Shown piece by piece: positions 31 to 7,244 of a DNA stretch of 7,496 nucleotides (position 1 is the stretch's first letter; the number at the start of each line of letters is the position of its first letter). A model generated the notes under the pieces. It was not told the origin of the DNA and searched no databases. It saw only the letters and a list, made by a program, of their open reading frames with translations. The translations under genes were made by a program, and so were the position numbers. The DNA is from Prevotellaceae bacterium. GTDB lineage: Bacteria; Bacteroidota; Bacteroidia; Bacteroidales; UBA932. The DNA lies in assembly GCA_031288885.1 (NCBI GenBank), contig JAITQP010000115.1, forward strand, positions 1-7,496, in the 5' to 3' direction.

Positions 31-555
31 TCACTTCACCGGATACGTTGCGCGGTAGGAGTACTCTCTTCCGTCCACCTGCCACCCGACAAACGCCCAG
101 CTGTTGAAGCCGGTGAGCTGGCTCCAGCCCGGGATGATTTCGCCGCTCTTGAGGACAACGTTTGCCGTAAAGTGCACCACCTCGCCCTGCGCGGGAACGG
201 ATAGCCCAAGCTTGCCGTAAAGGTCGGCTACGCTGACGGGAACATCCGCCGGAAAGTTCACAATGTTATCCACCACAACGCACGCGGCGTCCACCGGCGC
301 GCCGGTCAGCACCGCCAGCAGCTGGGCGTGGCTGAGCGACGAGTGGTCGCCCTGAAGCTCCGGAATGGTGAGCTTTACGTGGCAGCTTCCGGTGGTCTGC
401 CCCACCGCGATGGAGTCGGGGGTGCCGGCTACACGGCTAACGTCTATCAGCACGCCGCGCTTCACCTCGTCAATGGGGTAGGGAAGCTCCTTGCGGCAGC
501 TCGCAAAAATACTTAGGGTGACGGCTACAAGCGCCATCAAATACATCTTTTTCAT
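31..555 (-). CDS. Small lipoprotein, third gene of the susCD operon
   Basis: This 174-residue protein starts with a lipoprotein signal peptide (MKKMYLMALVAVTLSIFASC). The lipobox FASC puts the lipidated cysteine at residue 20. It is followed by R-K-E, a charged stretch resembling the Bacteroidota lipoprotein export signal that sends lipoproteins to the cell surface. The mature part of about 155 residues has alternating hydrophobic, beta-rich character, no further membrane segments and no catalytic motif I can recognise. The C-terminal part, with IPGW, LTGFN and GWQVDGREYSY, looks like a conserved core. The gene begins 33 nt after the susD-like stop and ends just before a strong hairpin, so it is the last gene of the operon. 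Small lipoproteins in this slot (SusE/SusF and other surface glycan-binding proteins) often assist ligand capture. This one is shorter than SusE or SusF, and an accessory role in the importer is inferred from position only. Confidence 0.85.
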   Translation of the reverse strand: MKKMYLMALVAVTLSIFASCRKELPYPIDEVKRGVLIDVSRVAGTPDSIAVGQTTGSCHVKLTIPELQGDHSSLSHAQLLAVLTGAPVDAACVVVDNIVNFPADVPVSVADLYGKLGLSVPAQGEVVHFTANVVLKSGEIIPGWSQLTGFNSWAFVGWQVDGREYSYRATYPVK

Positions 556-588: not shown

Positions 589-2277
589 CTACTTATCCCA
601 AAATAGAAGCTTTGCCGACAGGTCGATTTTTTGCTTCAGGTTGGGGTTGAGGTCTGTCTCCGAGGTGACGGGGTAGTAGAGCGAGCGCGGAAATTGCGCT
701 ATGCTTCTTATCGGCACCTGCGCGGGCGAGTAGTTGTTTGGCGTAAGGTTTACGCCGTAGCCCGGGTTGGAGGTGCGCTCCGGCGCAAAGAGCGTCGGGT
801 AGCCGGTGCGCCGGTAGTCCGTGTAGGCGTCCACCGGATTAAAGACGTTGGCAATCCACTTTTGGGTCATCACGATTTCCATCCTACCGGAGTTGTCGGG
901 GGCGGCGTCATACTTTGCAAGGATGTCGCCGGTGAAGCTGTCTCGGGCGGCGTTGGTAATTGCCGGCACGTTCTTTTGCTTGCTCGCCACGCTGTTTACG
1001 TGGTCAACGGCGGCCTCCATCGCCTCCTTTAGCAGCGCGCGCGCGTCGCCGGAGGTTTCGCCGGCCAACACCAGCTCCGCCAGCATGAACTTAAGCGCGG
1101 CAAAGGTCAGCATTTTGTGGGGCGCGTACCCGTTGCCCGCGTTGTACTGGGTTACCCTTCCACCCGCTCCGTCGTCGTACTTGCCGCCGCAGAGGTAAAG
1201 GCCAACCTTGGTGAGCAGGTTGTCGTTCGCCACGGAGGAGTTGCTGCCAAGGGTGGCAAAGAAGATGGACACGAACTCGCCGTTACGGTACTCGTAAAGC
1301 TTACTCCCCATGTCTTTTTCTTCTTTCTTCAACTGGTTGTAGAAGTAGTAGGGGACGCGGGGGTCTTCGACGCCCGCAAACGGGTTGGCGGTGCAGTTGT
1401 GCGTTTGCCCTTTCATGATTTCGTAAAAGAACGGGCTGACGTAGTAGGTGGTCTGCATGCCGCCGTACTCCGCCAGATAGGCCGGATGCCGCTGGTCGGC
1501 GGGGTTGGTCTTTTCGTTAAACCAGAACTGAAAGTCCTCGCCGGAGGCAATAAAGCTGCCCTCGCCTACGAGGTCGCTGAGCTTTGTCTGCCACTCCGTA
1601 ACGTCCGACTTCGCTTTGCGCGATTGCAGCAGGAGCTTTAGCTTGAGCGTATTGCACAGGCGCAGCCACTTGGCGGCGTTGCCGGCGTAGAGGAGGTCGT
1701 CGCCAGCCGGCTTCAGGGGGTTGGCGGCGGTGGTATCGGACAAGTCCGCGCGGGCGTCCTCCAGCAGCGCAATCAGGCTGTTGTAGATGACGGCGCTGTG
1801 GTCGGGGTGGGGAGCCGTGACGCCGGACACGTTGAACTTGCTGTAGGGAATATCGCCCCACAAGTCCACCATTACGGAGAAAGCGTACGCCTTTAGCGTT
1901 TTCGCAATGCCCGCGTAAATCAGGTTTCCGTCCGGCGTGGCGACCTTGATGATAGCGTCAAACTCCGACAGCGCGTGGGTGTAGGCGTAGTTCCACGTGT
2001 TGAGGGGGTTGTTGGCCTGAGGGTTCATGCCGTAGTTCTGCACCTCGCGCGACACCAGCTGGTGCACGTAAGACGACAGGTTATTGCCGATAAAATTCCC
2101 TTGGCTAAACGCTTGCACCATGGTGTACTCGCCCCCCGACAGCAGGTGCGACAGGTCGGCCGTTTCCGGACGGTTGGGGTCTTTGTTCACGTCTAAGAAA
2201 TCCTTTGTGCAGCCCACAAAGGAGAGCGCAAAAAGCAGCGCTAATAAAGATGTTGCTATATTTTTCATGTTGCTCAT
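589..2277 (-). CDS. SusD/RagB-family outer-membrane lipoprotein (SusD-like_2 type)
   Basis: SusD proteins are surface lipoproteins that cap a SusC barrel and help capture the nutrient. This 562-residue protein has a lipoprotein signal with lipobox FVGC and lipidated Cys23, followed by TKDFLDVNKDPNRP, a typical SusD-like_2 N-terminus. The helical, TPR-like scaffold shows in NTWNYAYTHALSEFDAIIK, in the following IYAGIAKTLKAYAFSVMVDLWGDIPYSKF stretch (broken by family-typical residues), and in AAKWLRLCNTLKLKLLLQSR. The C-terminal part contains TDYRRTGYPTLF and RSLYYPVTSETDLNP, also usual for the family. Length fits. The start is at Met1, with Met4 (codon at 2268-2266) as an alternative that gives the same mature protein. 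It begins 12 nt after the susC-like stop, so the two are almost certainly co-transcribed and form one complex. No Shine-Dalgarno sequence is seen. Substrate cannot be predicted. Confidence 0.97.
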   Translation of the reverse strand: MSNMKNIATSLLALLFALSFVGCTKDFLDVNKDPNRPETADLSHLLSGGEYTMVQAFSQGNFIGNNLSSYVHQLVSREVQNYGMNPQANNPLNTWNYAYTHALSEFDAIIKVATPDGNLIYAGIAKTLKAYAFSVMVDLWGDIPYSKFNVSGVTAPHPDHSAVIYNSLIALLEDARADLSDTTAANPLKPAGDDLLYAGNAAKWLRLCNTLKLKLLLQSRKAKSDVTEWQTKLSDLVGEGSFIASGEDFQFWFNEKTNPADQRHPAYLAEYGGMQTTYYVSPFFYEIMKGQTHNCTANPFAGVEDPRVPYYFYNQLKKEEKDMGSKLYEYRNGEFVSIFFATLGSNSSVANDNLLTKVGLYLCGGKYDDGAGGRVTQYNAGNGYAPHKMLTFAALKFMLAELVLAGETSGDARALLKEAMEAAVDHVNSVASKQKNVPAITNAARDSFTGDILAKYDAAPDNSGRMEIVMTQKWIANVFNPVDAYTDYRRTGYPTLFAPERTSNPGYGVNLTPNNYSPAQVPIRSIAQFPRSLYYPVTSETDLNPNLKQKIDLSAKLLFWDK

Positions 2278-2289
2278 GGTTTTACGATA

Positions 2290-5200
2290 TTAGAAAGTTA
2301 GCTTGAGGTTAAAGCCCACCCTGCGGATGGTGGGCGCGCTTTCGCGGTCGATGCCCTGCACGTTTCCGCTCCCAAAGCTGTTGGAGCCCGGGTCGTAGTT
2401 CATGTACTTGGGGAAGCCCGGCGCGTAGTGCCAGAGGTTTCGGGCAATGACCGATACGCTTGCCGAGCCGATAAAGGTTTGGCTCAGCCAGCTTTCGGGC
2501 AAATTCCAGCCCAAGGAGATTTCGCTCAGGCGGAACACCGTAGCGTCAAAGGTTTGGAACTCGTCCACGCCATTCAGGGCGAACGTTGGCGCCGTGCTCG
2601 ACGAGGCAAACCAGAGGTTGCTCTCGGGCAGCTGCACGGTGTTGGGGATTTTTTTGCCCGAGGCGTCGCGGAGAGGCTCGTGCGTGTTGGGGTCGGCAAA
2701 CACGCCCGGGAGGATGCGCGTGCCCAAACGGTCTTCCGTATCCTTGGTCACGCCGCGCCCCAGCAGGTCGGCAACCGTGCCGGCCACCAGCACGCCGCCC
2801 ACCCTGAAGTCGAACAGGCAGCTGAGCGAAACGCCCTTGTACGAAAGAGTATTCGTTATCGCCGCCTTAAAGTCGGGGTACGGGTTGCCCAAGTCCCCCA
2901 GCTCCGACGCCTCCATGTACGCCCCGCTCTGGGGGTTGACCAGCGGATTTCCCTCATCGTCGCGGGCTATGACCGAGCCGCGGAGAAACCCGTAGGGGTA
3001 ATTCGGCTGCAGCGTAGGCTGCACCTCGGAGGTAGTGCCGGTGTTCAGCGTGATGCGCTCCACGCCCTCCACCAGCGAGATGACCCGACTTACGTTTTTG
3101 GTAAAGGTGGTATAGACGCTCCACTTGAGGGAATTGCGCATCGCCACGGGCACCAGCGTGAGCCCCACCTCCAGCCCGCGGTTGCTCATCTCCCCAAAGT
3201 TGGTGTAGTGGCTTTGCAGCCCCGTGGAGCTGGGCAGGCTCACCGGCGCAATCTGGTCGGTGGTGCGGCGGTCGTACAGCGTAACGTCGGCGCCAAGGCG
3301 GTTTTGGAAGAGCTGCAGCTCCGCGCCAAGCTCCACCTCGGTGGTGAACTCCGGCTTCAGGTTTGGGTCGTAGGTGGTGGTAGGCGTTAGCATGATGGGG
3401 TGCTTGTCAAACGGCGTGTCCTGAAAAAACGTGCCGTTTACGTAGTAGGGCGCCGCATCGTTGCCCACCATTCCCCAGCCGGCGCGCAGCTTGCCGTAGC
3501 TCAGCACGTCGTGGTCAACCTCAAAGGCGTCGCTGAAGATGAACGAGCCCACCACCGCCGGATAGAAGTAGCTTTGGTTTCCCACCGGCAGCGTGGACGA
3601 GTGGTCGTTGCGCAGCGTAGCGTTCAGGAAAGCGTAGCTCCGGTACGTCAGCAGCACGTCCGCGTACACCGCCCAGAGCCGCCGCACGGACACTCCCTCG
3701 GTGGCGGTTTGCTCCTGCGTGTTGTCCACGTTGTATATTTTCCTAAAAATCATCTCATTTCCCACCGCCGTACCTTCCGTGAGCGTGCGCTGGTTGGCGT
3801 TGTGCCCCAGCACGGCTCTCAGGCTGAAGTCCTCCGTCAGGTCGCGCTTCAGCGTGAGCTGAAAGTTCGACTCCAGCTCTTGGCTGCCGTAGGTGTGGTT
3901 GGTAATCTGCCCCTTTCCGGCAAAGCCCGAGGGGCCTACCGACCCGATGTTGATGACCTGCTTGCGCTCCATCTCGTACTGATTCCACCCAAACTGGTAG
4001 TCCGCCGACAGCCACGGCGTAATATCGTAGCCGGCGTTCAGGCTGGTTACCGTCCTGTCCATTACCGTACCTATGGTGTTGTGCTTCCACGACCACAGGG
4101 GGTTGTCCACGCCGCCAAGCATAAACAGGTTGTCGCCCCGTGGCGTTTCGTAGGGCAATCCGTTGATATCGTAGCTGCGGGGAAGCAGGAGGGTGCGGGC
4201 AAAGGAGCTCACGGAGCCGCTGTAGTTGCCCGCGCCAAAGAACGGCCCGTTCTGCATGGCGCGCGAGTACGACAGCGTGCCGCCCGCGCGAACGCCGTTG
4301 TCCAGCTGCTGGTTTCCGCCAACGCTAAACGAGGTGCGCCCAAAGTCCGAGTGCGGGATGGCGCCGTCCTGCTTCAGCTGGGATACGGTGGCGCTAAAGC
4401 TCCCCTTGTCGTTAAAGCTGAGCAAATTTGCCGAAACATCCGCCACGCCGCCCGTCCTGAAGAGGTCTTTTACGTTGTTGGGGTAGGCGCGGTAGGGCAG
4501 CGTGGTAGGCATGTTGGGGTACGCCGTTAGGTAGGCGCCGTAGGTCTTAAATTCGCCGTGGGCTGAGAACGGGGCGCCCCACGAGCCGTTGGAGGGTTGG
4601 TACTGAAATTCGGAGCCCTGCCCGTAGGTATTCTGGTACTCCGGCAGCGAGGCCACCGCCTCCACCGCGTAGGAGGCGGATACCGTCACCTCAAACTTCC
4701 GCTGCGAGGGGCGCGCCTTCCGGCTGCCCGACTTGGTGGTAATCAGCACCACGCCGTTGGCGGCGCGGCTGCCGTAGAGCGCCGCCGCCGCCGCGCCCTT
4801 CAGCACGCTCATCGACTCAATATCGTTGGGGTCTAAGGTCGAAAGCCCCGTGCCGTAGGCGCCCGCCGTTGAGAGCCGGCTGCCGGTAACCACCTCGGGG
4901 TTGCTGTAGGGGATGCCGTCCACCACGTACAGCGGGTCGTTGTTGCCCAGAAACGACGAGTTGCCGCGTATGAGCACCTTTGTTGCGCTCCCCGCCACCG
5001 CCGATGACGAGCCAACCTGCACGCCGGGTATTTTGCCGTCCAGCGAGCGGAGCAAGTCCGGCTCGGCCTTCTGCGTGGCGCTGTTGGGGTCGACCTTTGC
5101 AACGGCGTAGCCCACCGACCGGTCTGTCCGCAAAATCCCCATGGCCGTGACCACAACCTCGTCCAGCGTCTTTGTGTCGGACTTAAGCACGATGGTGAGG

Positions 5201-5463
5201 TTAGTTGAGGCGGGCGCTTCGGTTTCAACGTAGCCAATGTACCTCACGACTACCGTGCTCACATTCTCCGCAACGAAAAACGTAAACCGCCCGTCAACAT
5301 CGGTGGACGTACCGGCGCTCGTTCCCTTAACAATTACCGACGCGCCAACCAGCGGGGCCCCTGATTCATCCACCACAACCCCCGAAACCTGCTTGTTTTG
5401 CGCAACGGCAAGCGCCATACTTAGCAAAAAACAGGTAAGTAATGATATAATTCTTTGTTTCAT
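2290..5463 (-). CDS. SusC/RagA-family TonB-dependent outer-membrane transporter
   Basis: This is a 1057-residue TonB-linked outer-membrane barrel that imports bulky nutrients (oligosaccharides, peptides or similar) with its SusD partner. The signal peptide ends at AVA-Q (residues 21/22). A CarboxypepD_reg-like domain follows (about 24-97, with SGVVVDESGAPLVGASV and DVDGRFTF). Next comes the TonB box LDEVVVTA (100-107), then the plug with SLDGKIPGVQV (140-150), NDPLYVVDGIPYSN (175-188) and GSRAANGVVLITTKSG (231-246), the SusC signatures. The rest is beta-barrel with many aromatic strand ends, closing at FNLKLTF with the terminal Phe expected for barrel insertion. There is no N-terminal STN domain, so anti-sigma signalling through this protein is not indicated. 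It is the first gene of a three-gene operon and is preceded by an unusual leader with two terminator-like hairpins. The start at 5463 is supported by the signal peptide. Substrate unknown. Confidence 0.98.
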   Translation of the reverse strand: MKQRIISLLTCFLLSMALAVAQNKQVSGVVVDESGAPLVGASVIVKGTSAGTSTDVDGRFTFFVAENVSTVVVRYIGYVETEAPASTNLTIVLKSDTKTLDEVVVTAMGILRTDRSVGYAVAKVDPNSATQKAEPDLLRSLDGKIPGVQVGSSSAVAGSATKVLIRGNSSFLGNNDPLYVVDGIPYSNPEVVTGSRLSTAGAYGTGLSTLDPNDIESMSVLKGAAAAALYGSRAANGVVLITTKSGSRKARPSQRKFEVTVSASYAVEAVASLPEYQNTYGQGSEFQYQPSNGSWGAPFSAHGEFKTYGAYLTAYPNMPTTLPYRAYPNNVKDLFRTGGVADVSANLLSFNDKGSFSATVSQLKQDGAIPHSDFGRTSFSVGGNQQLDNGVRAGGTLSYSRAMQNGPFFGAGNYSGSVSSFARTLLLPRSYDINGLPYETPRGDNLFMLGGVDNPLWSWKHNTIGTVMDRTVTSLNAGYDITPWLSADYQFGWNQYEMERKQVINIGSVGPSGFAGKGQITNHTYGSQELESNFQLTLKRDLTEDFSLRAVLGHNANQRTLTEGTAVGNEMIFRKIYNVDNTQEQTATEGVSVRRLWAVYADVLLTYRSYAFLNATLRNDHSSTLPVGNQSYFYPAVVGSFIFSDAFEVDHDVLSYGKLRAGWGMVGNDAAPYYVNGTFFQDTPFDKHPIMLTPTTTYDPNLKPEFTTEVELGAELQLFQNRLGADVTLYDRRTTDQIAPVSLPSSTGLQSHYTNFGEMSNRGLEVGLTLVPVAMRNSLKWSVYTTFTKNVSRVISLVEGVERITLNTGTTSEVQPTLQPNYPYGFLRGSVIARDDEGNPLVNPQSGAYMEASELGDLGNPYPDFKAAITNTLSYKGVSLSCLFDFRVGGVLVAGTVADLLGRGVTKDTEDRLGTRILPGVFADPNTHEPLRDASGKKIPNTVQLPESNLWFASSSTAPTFALNGVDEFQTFDATVFRLSEISLGWNLPESWLSQTFIGSASVSVIARNLWHYAPGFPKYMNYDPGSNSFGSGNVQGIDRESAPTIRRVGFNLKLTF

Positions 5464-5487: not shown

Positions 5488-5502
5488 CACCAACTTTTAC
5501 CT

Positions 5503-5518
5503 CCCTGCTACGGCAGGG
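5503..5518 (-). other. Small tetraloop hairpin in the susC leader
   Basis: On the minus strand CCCTGC-CGTA-GCAGGG makes a 6-bp perfect stem with a 4-nt loop, 39 nt upstream of the susC-like ATG and just downstream of the second terminator-like hairpin. It has no T-run after it, so it is not a terminator. It could be a stability or folding element of the leader RNA, and nothing more can be said. Confidence 0.45.
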
Positions 5519-5524
5519 TACAGT

Positions 5525-5559
5525 AAAAAAGAAGCCCTCCCCCAACGTGCGGGAAGGGC
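5525..5559 (-). terminator. Second (promoter-distal) terminator-like hairpin in the susC leader
   Basis: Read on the minus strand, GCCCTTCCC and GGGGAGGGC (5534-5559) form a 9-bp stem with one G-U pair and an 8-nt loop. TTCTTTTTT (5533-5525) follows immediately, the classic intrinsic-terminator layout. It points towards the susC-like gene, whose ATG is 62 nt downstream of the T-run. It comes directly after another such hairpin (5563-5602) and downstream of the best promoter candidate. It therefore either attenuates susC transcription or insulates it from the upstream gene. Confidence 0.7.
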
Positions 5560-5562
5560 ATG

Positions 5563-5602
5563 AAAAAACGGCTTGGCGCCTGCAAGCTGCAAGGCCAAAC
5601 CG
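5563..5602 (-). terminator. First (promoter-proximal) terminator-like hairpin in the susC leader
   Basis: On the minus strand CGGTTTG pairs with CAAGCCG, and inside it GCCT pairs with AGGC and GCA with TGC around a GCT loop. That gives about 14 bp (one G-U) with two small bulges over 5569-5602. The stem is followed directly by TTTTTT (5568-5563), so this is a well-formed intrinsic terminator on the minus strand. No comparable T-run exists on the plus-strand side. Only 3 nt separate its T-run from the next hairpin, making a tandem pair. Confidence 0.72.
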
Positions 5603-5628
5603 TAACGCTGTACACCACATCGCCACCC

Positions 5629-5651: not shown

Positions 5652-5683
5652 ATCATGGTATGCTATAAGATATTTCTACACTA

Positions 5684-5714
5684 CTAAGATAGAAAGAAAA
5701 TCCCGACGACACAA
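5684..5714 (-). promoter_or_regulatory. Candidate Bacteroidota-type promoter for the susC operon
   Basis: The Bacteroidota housekeeping promoter is a -33 TTTG-like element and a -7 TAnnTTTG element about 19-20 bp apart. On the minus strand TTG (5714-5712) is followed after exactly 20 nt by TATCTTAG (5691-5684), one mismatch from the -7 consensus. Transcription would begin near 5677 and give a leader of roughly 214 nt containing both terminator-like hairpins. A second, poorer candidate is TAACGTTTG at 5737-5729, with one extra spacer base inside the box. Nothing matching the consensus was found between the hairpins and the ATG. Confidence 0.4.
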
Positions 5715-5817
5715 CTAAAATGCGCTATCAAACGTTAAGAGAATTGGAGGGGATTTTGCGGCAACGATACCTTGTCCGCGTCATTGCAGCGGAGCGGAGT
5801 TTAACGAAGTTATTATA
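5715..5817. other. Intergenic stretch without a recognisable gene
   Basis: This is the middle part of the 458-nt gap between the FGE-like gene and the susC-like gene. No convincing ORF, tRNA or insertion element is seen. The segment around 5779-5815 (GTCATTGCAGCGGAGCGGAG followed by TTAACGAAG) resembles in style the short extragenic repeats containing CATTGC and GCGGAGC-like strings found in various bacteria. Only one copy is present in this window, so it cannot be called a repeat from here. Confidence 0.3.
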
Positions 5818-5858
5818 AAAATGGAGAATGAAAAAAAACTCTTTCCATTCTCCATTTT
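5818..5858 (-). terminator. Terminator hairpin of the FGE-like gene
   Basis: AAAATGGAGAATG (5818-5830) and CATTCTCCATTTT (5846-5858) are perfect 13-bp reverse complements around a 15-nt A-rich loop. On the minus strand the stem ends in CCATTTTT and continues TATAATAA, so the T-run overlaps the base of the stem. It lies 64 nt past the TAG stop (5922-5924) of the FGE-like gene and is its most likely terminator. Because A and T runs flank both sides, it could work in either direction. Confidence 0.7.
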
Positions 5859-5860
5859 GC

Positions 5861-5906
5861 TCCGCCCGCCGTCTGGCAACGCTCAAAGCGTACATGGAGG
5901 GGCGGA
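5861..5906 (-). other. G+C-rich stem between the FGE-like gene and its terminator
   Basis: TCCGCCC (5861-5867) and GGGCGGA (5900-5906) are perfect complements enclosing a smaller ACGC-TCAAA-GCGT hairpin (5879-5891). The structure falls in the 3' untranslated region right after the FGE-like stop codon and before the 5818-5858 terminator, so it may protect the mRNA 3' end. The 7-bp outer stem closes a 32-nt loop, which makes this a weaker call than the neighbouring terminator. Confidence 0.4.
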
Positions 5907-5921: not shown

Positions 5922-7244
5922 CTACGGCAAAACCACGCGGAGGCCTAAGCTGGTGAGGTGGCAGTTGGCTATGCCACAGGGGGAGCGGGTAGCAGCGCGG
6001 TGCCTTTCGGCGTCACTGTCCCAAGCACCGCCGCGAACCGCGTGGTAAGTACCGCTATTAGGGCCTGTAGGATTAGCTGCTGCTGCGCTGCTATAACTTG
6101 CATACCACCAGTCGTAAACCCACTCCCAAACGTTGCCGGACATATCGTGAATACCGAGAGCATTCGGCTTCTTTTGTCCTACCGGATGTGTCGTGGCGGA
6201 GGAATTTTCTTTGTACCATCCCACCTCGTTGAGGTCGTTGCTCCCGCTGTACAGAAGATTTTCGCATACGGCGTTACCTGCGCTACCGTCAACCTTGCAC
6301 CCGCGCGCTACGTACTCCCACTCCGCCTCTGTCGGTAGGCGGTAGCCCCGCTTGCCCGTTAAGGTTACAGTAGCTCCGCTAATAGCGTAAGCTTCCTCTA
6401 AGCCTACCTTTTTGCTCAGCTCGTTGCAGAACTTTACCGCTTCATACCAGTCCATGTACTCTGCCGGTCGCTGCTCATCGCAAGGTATGTTACCGCAGTT
6501 GGTGCCCTTCCAACTGTAAATCTCTCCCGCATCCGCTACGCTGGTGCCCGCAACCCCCGTCATCACCAGCTTCCACTGCGCCTGCGTTATCTCGTACTTC
6601 CCTATGCTAAAGCTGCTCAACGTTACGCTATGGGTGGGCTTCTCGTTGGCGTTACAACCGGTCTGCTCAGCGGTGCACCCCATCGTGAACGTGCCGCCCT
6701 CTACGTGCACCATCTCAATATCCAGCTCCGCAGGATAAGTACGCGCAGGAGCGGGAGCTCTATGCTTGTACCCCGTTCTATCCAGCTGCTGCGATAGCGC
6801 CCGAGACACCCGCGGCAGGTCGTCCTCAACTATGCCGGTGCGCACGTAGCTGCCTCTGCCATTCACCTTGCTGTCTTTTACATCGATGAGCAGCGCATAA
6901 AACATGTGGTCGCTGCCTTTGACAGCGTCAGCTACCAAGCATATCGTAGATATGCCGTTGGTGCGTCCCCACTCGGTGAGCGCGTTTCGGTCTATCTTCT
7001 CCGCGCCTTGCGAGCGCAGGTCGGCGAGCTTTGCCTGCACAGCGGCGTCATTGGTTGCCACTGTGTAGCGGCTGTTGCGGTTAAGCTCGCTGCCTATCTG
7101 GGTGGCAAACTTGTCGCCCAGCGTGTTGTCCATGCCCACCACAAATACGGTCAGCGTGGGCTTGGTTTGCGCTCCGGCGGTCATCGTGCTTGCTGCCCCA
7201 ACGAGCAGCAAAGCAGCTAAATAAAGTTTGTAGTTCTGTTTCAT
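5922..7244 (-). CDS. Secreted FGE-sulfatase (SUMF1-like) domain protein, catalytically degenerate
   Basis: This 440-residue protein has a Sec signal peptide ending near AGA-Q (residue 25/26) and no lipobox. An N-terminal alpha/beta domain of about residues 29-155 (TLTVFVVGMDNTLGDKF, GSELNRN, CLVADAV, YALLIDV) resembles the small periplasmic nucleotide/CsgG-TolB-like modules often put before such domains; this assignment is uncertain. After an Ala/Pro-rich linker (about 160-172), the FGE-sulfatase domain runs from 175 to the end: EGGTFTMG (182-189), GKYEITQAQW (215-224), YRLPTEAEWEYVARG (301-315), GNVWEWVYDWW (370-380), RGGAW (404-408) and GLRVVLP. True formylglycine-generating enzymes need two cysteines after RGGSW. 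Here these positions are Ser410 and His415, so sulfatase maturation is unlikely and a binding or structural role, as in GldK/GldJ-like relatives, is more plausible. Four closely spaced Cys pairs suggest disulfides. No type IX secretion tail is seen. It stands alone between its own leader and terminator. Confidence 0.93.
   Translation of the reverse strand: MKQNYKLYLAALLLVGAASTMTAGAQTKPTLTVFVVGMDNTLGDKFATQIGSELNRNSRYTVATNDAAVQAKLADLRSQGAEKIDRNALTEWGRTNGISTICLVADAVKGSDHMFYALLIDVKDSKVNGRGSYVRTGIVEDDLPRVSRALSQQLDRTGYKHRAPAPARTYPAELDIEMVHVEGGTFTMGCTAEQTGCNANEKPTHSVTLSSFSIGKYEITQAQWKLVMTGVAGTSVADAGEIYSWKGTNCGNIPCDEQRPAEYMDWYEAVKFCNELSKKVGLEEAYAISGATVTLTGKRGYRLPTEAEWEYVARGCKVDGSAGNAVCENLLYSGSNDLNEVGWYKENSSATTHPVGQKKPNALGIHDMSGNVWEWVYDWWYASYSSAAAANPTGPNSGTYHAVRGGAWDSDAERHRAATRSPCGIANCHLTSLGLRVVLP

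Follow-up and report, generated by a model that had tools for sequence, protein, structure and literature searches.

In trp-type and riboswitch-type attenuation, intrinsic terminators are located in mRNA leaders, where a hairpin with its T-run sits between promoter and gene and the gene is made by read-through. The susC leader analyzed here shares this layout but differs in that two terminator-like hairpins stand in series, across many susC genes of one genus, and in that neither a leader peptide nor an aptamer was found. Control of susC/susD genes is usually described as acting at initiation, by ECF sigma/anti-sigma pairs and hybrid two-component systems, together with antisense and small RNAs. 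RNA-level control has been described in several forms in Bacteroides. UpxY antitermination operates at capsule loci (PMC12632263), the 54-nt mRNA leader of roc in B. thetaiotaomicron controls a PUL-encoded protein independently of initiation (PMC10294740), DonS-type cis-antisense RNAs of susC are known (PMC7366714, PMC10994844), and the sRNAs FopS and GibS as well as RbpB act on susC 5' UTRs (PMC11697453). Like the locus described here, the roc leader serves a PUL-encoded protein through mRNA leader control, although the excerpts of PMC10294740 describe no terminators in its 54 nt. The DonS-type RNAs also place RNA-level control at susC leaders but are antisense, whereas the T-runs reported here adjoin their hairpins on the susC-sense strand only, and the plus strand has no adjoining T-run that would make a DonS-type terminator. 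For FopS, GibS and RbpB the susC 5' UTR is likewise the regulatory target, but the excerpts describe sRNAs that pair in trans close to the start codon and no leader terminators. Antisense RNAs, sRNAs and sORFs reminiscent of leader peptides are described in excerpts of these papers and of PMC9723704 (PMC7366714, PMC11697453, PMC10994844, PMC12632263, PMC10294740), and among the open-licence PMC papers searched, none of the excerpts returned describes a terminator in a susC leader.

The analyzed DNA (the window, 7,496 nucleotides) is contig C280 of a genome of 320 contigs. On its minus strand, a gene with an FGE-sulfatase domain (5922-7244) is followed by a susC-family gene (2290..5463; TIGR04056, 1057 aa), a SusD-like gene (589..2277; PF12771/PF12741) and, in the same direction as susC, a 174-aa ORF (31..555) that looks like a lipoprotein by eye and gave no match in Pfam or NCBIfam. 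Named relatives of the window SusC at 78-80% identity come from four MAGs labelled Prevotellaceae bacterium. Such MAGs presumably stem from termite guts. Downstream of the FGE-sulfatase-domain gene, a weak terminator-like hairpin (5822..5857, minus strand) scored 3.5 (-39.7 with a longer stem). An A+T-rich long inverted repeat at 5819-5858, AAAATGGAGAATG...CATTCTCCATTTT, lies after this gene, with a z of -5.1 for 5810-5870.

Inside the susC leader, hairpin H1 (5568..5603, minus strand, -24.1 kcal/mol; predicted intrinsic terminator 1), whose stem has a one-base bulge, is joined to a T6 run (5563..5568, minus strand) whose first T can pair with A5603, while hairpin H2 (5534..5559, minus strand, -18.4 kcal/mol; predicted intrinsic terminator 2) is directly followed on its 3' side by a TTCTTTTTT run (TTCT6; 5525..5533, minus strand). 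Both combine a stable GC-rich stem with an adjoining T-rich tract, the mark of an intrinsic terminator. The stretch holding the two hairpins gave a fold z of -5.8 with none of 200 dinucleotide shuffles as stable; taken alone, H2 gave a z of -3.7 (0/200) and H1 a z of -2.7 (4/200). When the terminator-like sites on both strands of the window were ranked by the d'Aubenton-Carafa score, H1 (26.7 in the scan, 19.0 with its outermost A-U pair included) and H2 (22.1) came first and second among 23 sites, the third scored 3.5, and the other 20 were negative. The original prediction of two minus-strand hairpins with T-runs (T6; TTC plus T6) before susC is thus confirmed, and these are the two best-scoring sites in the window. 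Their bare number carries no such signal, because a consensus scan of the whole window found 12 terminator-like sites against 9.0 +/- 3.1 in shuffles, which is not significant. We infer from these sequence features that H1 and H2 would terminate transcription in the cell. Acting in series, they would stop most transcripts before susC, and only those polymerases that pass both would go on to transcribe the importer operon. Given two predicted terminators before susC, the importer operon probably needs read-through. On balance, we regard it as fairly probable that this leader works by attenuation, as a serial brake in which two predicted terminators are both read through to make the operon.

Downstream of H2, a third hairpin, H3 (5494..5530, minus strand), contains CCCTGC/GCAGGG (5518-5503) inside UUUUAC/GUAAAA (5528-5523 with 5500-5495), with CUGUACC...GGAGG. 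The GUAAAA of H3 can also pair with the H2 T-run, a feature absent from the earlier note. The end of H3 is about 40 nt away from the susC ATG and would form the border of an unstructured A/U-rich start region. A DNA search found the window leader also before two orthologues (G007:C141 and G002:C143), before a further two susC genes (G010:C29 and G010:C304) and at G007:C87, and its layout was recognized on reading before a third orthologue (G001:C201); the G003 orthologue (L006), which starts at the edge of its contig, lacks a leader. Within the genus, the H1-H2-H3 layout is thus shared by the leaders of three orthologues and of two further susC genes. These six copies and the window gave the seven rows of a covariance model, R1, which finds its own training rows, from 5 of the 11 genus genomes, at E values of 6e-30 to 2e-17 by construction. 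R1 added one weak copy (E 5e-5), before the susC gene of G002:C175, in which H3 alone remains; further weak matches within the genus had E values of 0.01-1, one of them (G010:C95) before a susC gene. Across 295 genomes of the order, searched with stricter filters, a strong match appeared in G000 only, with no rows from the other ten genus genomes, and seven others at 22-28 bits (E 5e-4 to 0.01) were taken as ordinary tandem hairpins. A repeat element was considered and rejected, the leader having one match in its own genome. H1-H2-H3 is a recurring structured leader without a match in Rfam 15.

Six of the seven R1 copies lie directly before susC, and in two of these the encoded SusC is 33-35% identical to that of the window. 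The remaining copy (G007:C87, L028:98-214) precedes not susC but an ORF that looks methyltransferase-like by eye; its H3 looks decayed, and it probably survives as a relic of gene loss or recombination. The recurrence of the H1-H2 unit before several susC genes, and the copy that is not before susC, would also suit a terminated leader RNA of about 45-150 nt acting in trans as a small RNA. We consider this very improbable, because that same copy looks decayed in H3, no conserved unpaired seed stretch was evident by eye, and no Rfam sRNA family scored above the cut-off.

Comparison of the seven members, a check called for in the original prediction, was largely favorable. In a MAFFT alignment, 82.6% of pair cells were standard, versus 39-57% with slid partners, and 10 of 31 pairs were altered on both sides. 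The covariation score was reached by none of 500 shuffles, but the number of pair types was reached by 141 of 500. RNAalifold run without structure input returned the same three hairpins, H1, H2 and H3, with a small covariation term (-0.75). At least six Ts follow H1 in all seven members, and 73.3% of its pair cells are standard; both sides are changed in five of the nine H2 pairs, and one outer H3 pair varies among A-U, G-C and G-U. Changes in the orthologous leaders thus mostly keep pairing in both stems; the expectation fell short for H1 of G002:C143, which pairs poorly and is largely broken. The H2 T-run is kept in five of the seven members and decayed in G002:C143 and G010:C304. Given these two losses, the poor H1 of G002:C143 and the H3-only copy of G002:C175, the terminators appear dispensable in places.

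The hairpins were originally placed downstream of a promoter candidate, with no promoter-like sequence between them and the gene, and by consensus both statements hold. The candidate (5684..5714, minus strand), of Bacteroidetes type and recognized from its sequence only, consists of TTG (5714-5712), 20 nt and TATCTTAG (5691-5684), predicting a start near 5677. Within 420 nt upstream of the susC ATG, a scan for TAnnTT[T/A]G revealed this box at 5691-5684 as the sole occurrence, and hence none between H2 and susC. By consensus, a candidate promoter thus lies upstream of the predicted terminators and none downstream, an order that would suit an attenuator if transcription starts at this candidate. 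The TATCTTAG box is identical in the G002 orthologue and is not found in the G007 and G001 orthologues. In two of the seven members (G007:C141 and G007:C87), a T-rich/CAA promoter-like box lies just before H1; the window copy gave no match to it. Transcription might also start just before H1 instead of near 5677. With either candidate start, H1 and H2 are inside the leader, and termination would yield RNAs of about 45 and 80 nt or of about 115 and 150 nt, depending on the start used.

These findings bear on a simpler role, in which the hairpins only block upstream or pervasive transcription and susC starts downstream of H2. Such insulation would fit the same-direction gene upstream, whose own hairpin (5822..5857) is weak by score, and the usually short 5' UTRs of Bacteroides (median 32 nt in the excerpt of PMC7366714), but it is at odds with the complete lack of TAnnTT[T/A]G boxes from H2 to the ATG, and we judge it unlikely. 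Among 105 control leaders of other genes, TAnnTTTG occurred 49 times on the sense strand, 32 times on the other strand and 7 times in shuffles, and 24 of the 49 sense boxes sit 25-75 nt before the ATG. The corresponding numbers for susC leaders were 30, 36 and 14, with no peak at 25-75 nt. In out-of-genus relatives, TAnnTTTG was found 132-258 nt before the ATG in seven of nine leaders, and the nine held one weak hairpin (-9.1). The window TATCTTAG fits this spacing, at 228 nt from the ATG and with a predicted leader length of about 215 nt. Since distant boxes are present in most of these nine leaders and hairpins nearly absent, the long susC leader is probably older than its terminators.

Returning to attenuation, its read-through step would be regulated, most likely in trans, which is a weaker proposal than termination itself. 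The original prediction had made gene expression depend on an antitermination signal, and here it found no match: folds, ATG starts, Rfam and NusG paralogues yielded none, apart from a second NusG-domain protein in G003. RNAalifold on the seven members returned H1, H2 and H3 only, with no conserved competing fold as an antiterminator. No ATG lies within 90 nt before H1 in five of the seven members (ATG starts only were considered), and the window ORF runs into susC. Rfam 15 gave no matches in the leader at the gathering cut-off, which an undescribed aptamer would escape, and four matches at relaxed thresholds were rejected, being on the other strand and far below the cut-offs. A cis switch is disfavored by the lack of an Rfam family, of an ATG before H1 in those five members and of a conserved competing fold. 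The classical form, in which H1 is preceded by a riboswitch or leader peptide that toggles terminator and antiterminator, would find room in the possible leader of about 75 nt from the promoter candidate (5714-5684) to H1, and GUACAG (5608..5613, minus strand), a complement to CUGUAC of H3, could in the fold close a helix over both terminators. It is nonetheless highly unlikely: besides the missing start codons, the ORF continuing into susC and the empty Rfam search, little conservation was seen by eye ahead of H1, and a complement of the GUACAG/CUGUAC type, present as 4-6 nt in four of the seven members, is absent (none of at least 4 nt) from the other three. The long-range helix was accordingly rejected as a conserved feature.

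A second known route to read-through is a dedicated NusG paralogue. Antitermination of the UpxY/LoaP type resembles the read-through proposed here in that early termination is overcome in Bacteroidales operons, but eight of the nine genus genomes with a NusG-domain protein carry just one. One such protein was found in G000 and in seven other genus genomes, two in G003 and none in G008 and G009, these genomes being incomplete; no dedicated paralogue was seen in these incomplete genus genomes except the second protein of G003, and the window has no upxY-like gene. A single NusG-domain protein in eight genomes disfavors this route. Release may come from a trans-acting RNA-binding protein or sRNA, or read-through may be a simple leak proportional to initiation.

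To place this leader among others, we collected 165 susC 5' regions from 10 genus genomes, drawn from part of the susC matches listed. A usable start was found in 156, and the other nine lacked an ATG ahead of the profile match (L184, L185, L189, L191, L004, L011, L015, L016 and L020); L004, L015 and L020, scanned separately, held 2, 2 and 1 sense terminator-like hairpins. Dropping one region below 60 nt left 155, and leaving out 33 with less than 85 nt of leader gave 122. Up to 300 nt were scanned for hairpins of -10 kcal/mol or better with at least 5 T in 7. At least one hairpin was found on the sense strand of 66 leaders and at least two in 40, versus 30 and 5 on the antisense strand and 18% and 3% in shuffled leaders. 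As control, leaders of other genes were taken from 20 contig stretches in nine of the survey's genomes by home-made gene calls; at least one hairpin occurred in 24 and at least two in 3 of 112, or 21 and 3 of 104 after removal of eight SusC-like genes. Against these 104, the susC enrichment gave Fisher p values of 1.5e-7 (at least one) and 1.5e-9 (at least two). Because the leaders are related by descent, they were also clustered, with the eight SusC-like genes still in the control: on the sense strand, 19 of 48 susC clusters had at least one hairpin versus 24 of 108 (p 0.03), and 8 of 48 had at least two versus 3 of 108 (p 0.004). In the largest susC cluster, 30 of the 37 leaders have at least two hairpins. 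Tandem sense-strand terminator-like hairpins are enriched in the susC leaders of this genus. About one-third of the long leaders carry at least two; this would add early termination as a control layer and bears on the silencing of dozens of importers. Elsewhere in the order, in other genera (83 regions, 60 from one set and 23 loci from another, of which L329 and the unlisted loci were left out; 56 with at least 85 nt), at least one hairpin was found in 14 of 56 susC leaders and at least two in one. The best reading is that the attenuation layout would be specific to the genus. The attenuation proposed originally thus gains from the layout kept in orthologues and other susC leaders and from the enrichment of tandem hairpins, while its antitermination half lacks a counterpart in our searches.

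The strand comparison also bears on a purely post-transcriptional role, in which the hairpins protect the 5' region of the mRNA or shape the ribosome landing site, termination being weak or absent and the T-runs just part of an A/U-rich leader. Hairpins that end about 40 nt ahead of the ATG next to an A/U-rich stretch, with or without a sense T-run, and the persistence of H3 in G002:C175 would suit this role. By contrast, the strong H1 and H2 stems are joined to T6 and TTCT6 with scores far above all other sites, and, counted by leader, the sense strand has about twice as many T-run hairpins as the antisense strand; the asymmetry is modest by cluster, because the antisense strand gives 12 (at least one) and 4 (at least two) of 48. 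We hold both the structural role and the incidental origin of the T-runs to be distinctly unlikely. Two further survey results concern insulation of susC from upstream transcription. In its favor, the T-runs of susC leaders peak close to the gene: 30 of 122 susC leaders, and none of the 104 others, have a T-run that starts 40-49 nt upstream of the ATG. Against it, terminator-like hairpins are present with divergent neighbors too: 6 (at least one) and 3 (at least two) of 13 susC leaders versus 7 and 2 of 35 controls, which are few cases. Moreover, the first hairpins of many other leaders follow a promoter-like box with one of two favored spacings, as detailed below.

The enrichment signal comes mostly from leaders with a (CA)n tract, since the 58 without it are weakly enriched (at least one hairpin in 19, p 0.09; at least two in 8, p 0.02); the 64 of the (CA)n class have at least one in 47 and at least two in 32. 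Such a tract was found within 430 nt in 63 of the 155 susC 5' regions (e.g., L023, L068, L085 and L253). A T-rich/CAA box follows it within 110 nt in 46 of 63 leaders (shuffled mean 5.2, maximum 9), and elsewhere the loose pattern was seen in 9 of the 104 control leaders when 110 nt were scanned and in 12 of 58 non-(CA)n susC leaders over 250 nt. We infer that this box is a promoter. In the 38 leaders with both this box and a hairpin after it, the first terminator-like hairpin begins 0-2 nt after the box in 9, of which L203 and L242 are doubtful (in L242, a later box and a second hairpin were scored), 18-23 nt after it in 24, most of which form one related cluster, and elsewhere in 5. Stems of unrelated sequence (CCCGAAC, GCCCTAC, GCCGCATC) occupy the 1-2 nt position. 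The commonest first hairpin, of AGTGAACGGTC type, showed 96.6% pairing with 8 of 11 pairs altered on both sides in 16 hand-chosen sequences. From its spacing after the promoter-like box, the first hairpin is likely among the earliest transcribed parts. In the commonest related leaders, about 1 or about 20 nt separate the box from the first hairpin, which leaves little room upstream for a sensor, so that release in trans appears most likely. That intrinsic terminators are welded to susC promoters at fixed spacing, forming a genus-wide attenuation regulon under a trans-acting read-through factor, with outer-membrane nutrient import controlled by freeing polymerase from promoter-proximal termination and not by initiation alone, is a tentative extension that we regard as rather doubtful.

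The (CA)n tracts, which are long, precede the promoter-like box of these susC genes, and RRGTTA occurs within 30 nt in 27 of 63 (shuffled mean 0.85). Eleven of 60 regions start inside the tract, indicating that it often breaks assembly. No (CA)6 was present in 56 susC leaders of other genera. The tract is possibly a length-variable promoter element or a site of phase variation.

In a third class of leaders (L007, L008, L009, L012, L201, L227, L229, L241 and others), an A-run, a GC-rich hairpin and then AGTAAAA or a similar sequence lie about 40-80 nt before the susC ATG. Here the adjoining T-run belongs to the antisense strand, which would suit the end of an antisense transcript, and in L229 and L241 a TACCTTTG box stands directly upstream. 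In L213, L226, L239, L243, L247, L272 and L273, SusC seems to start with an MNKKLLDQNR-type sequence ahead of the apparent signal peptide, and the reading frame is open across the leader hairpins.
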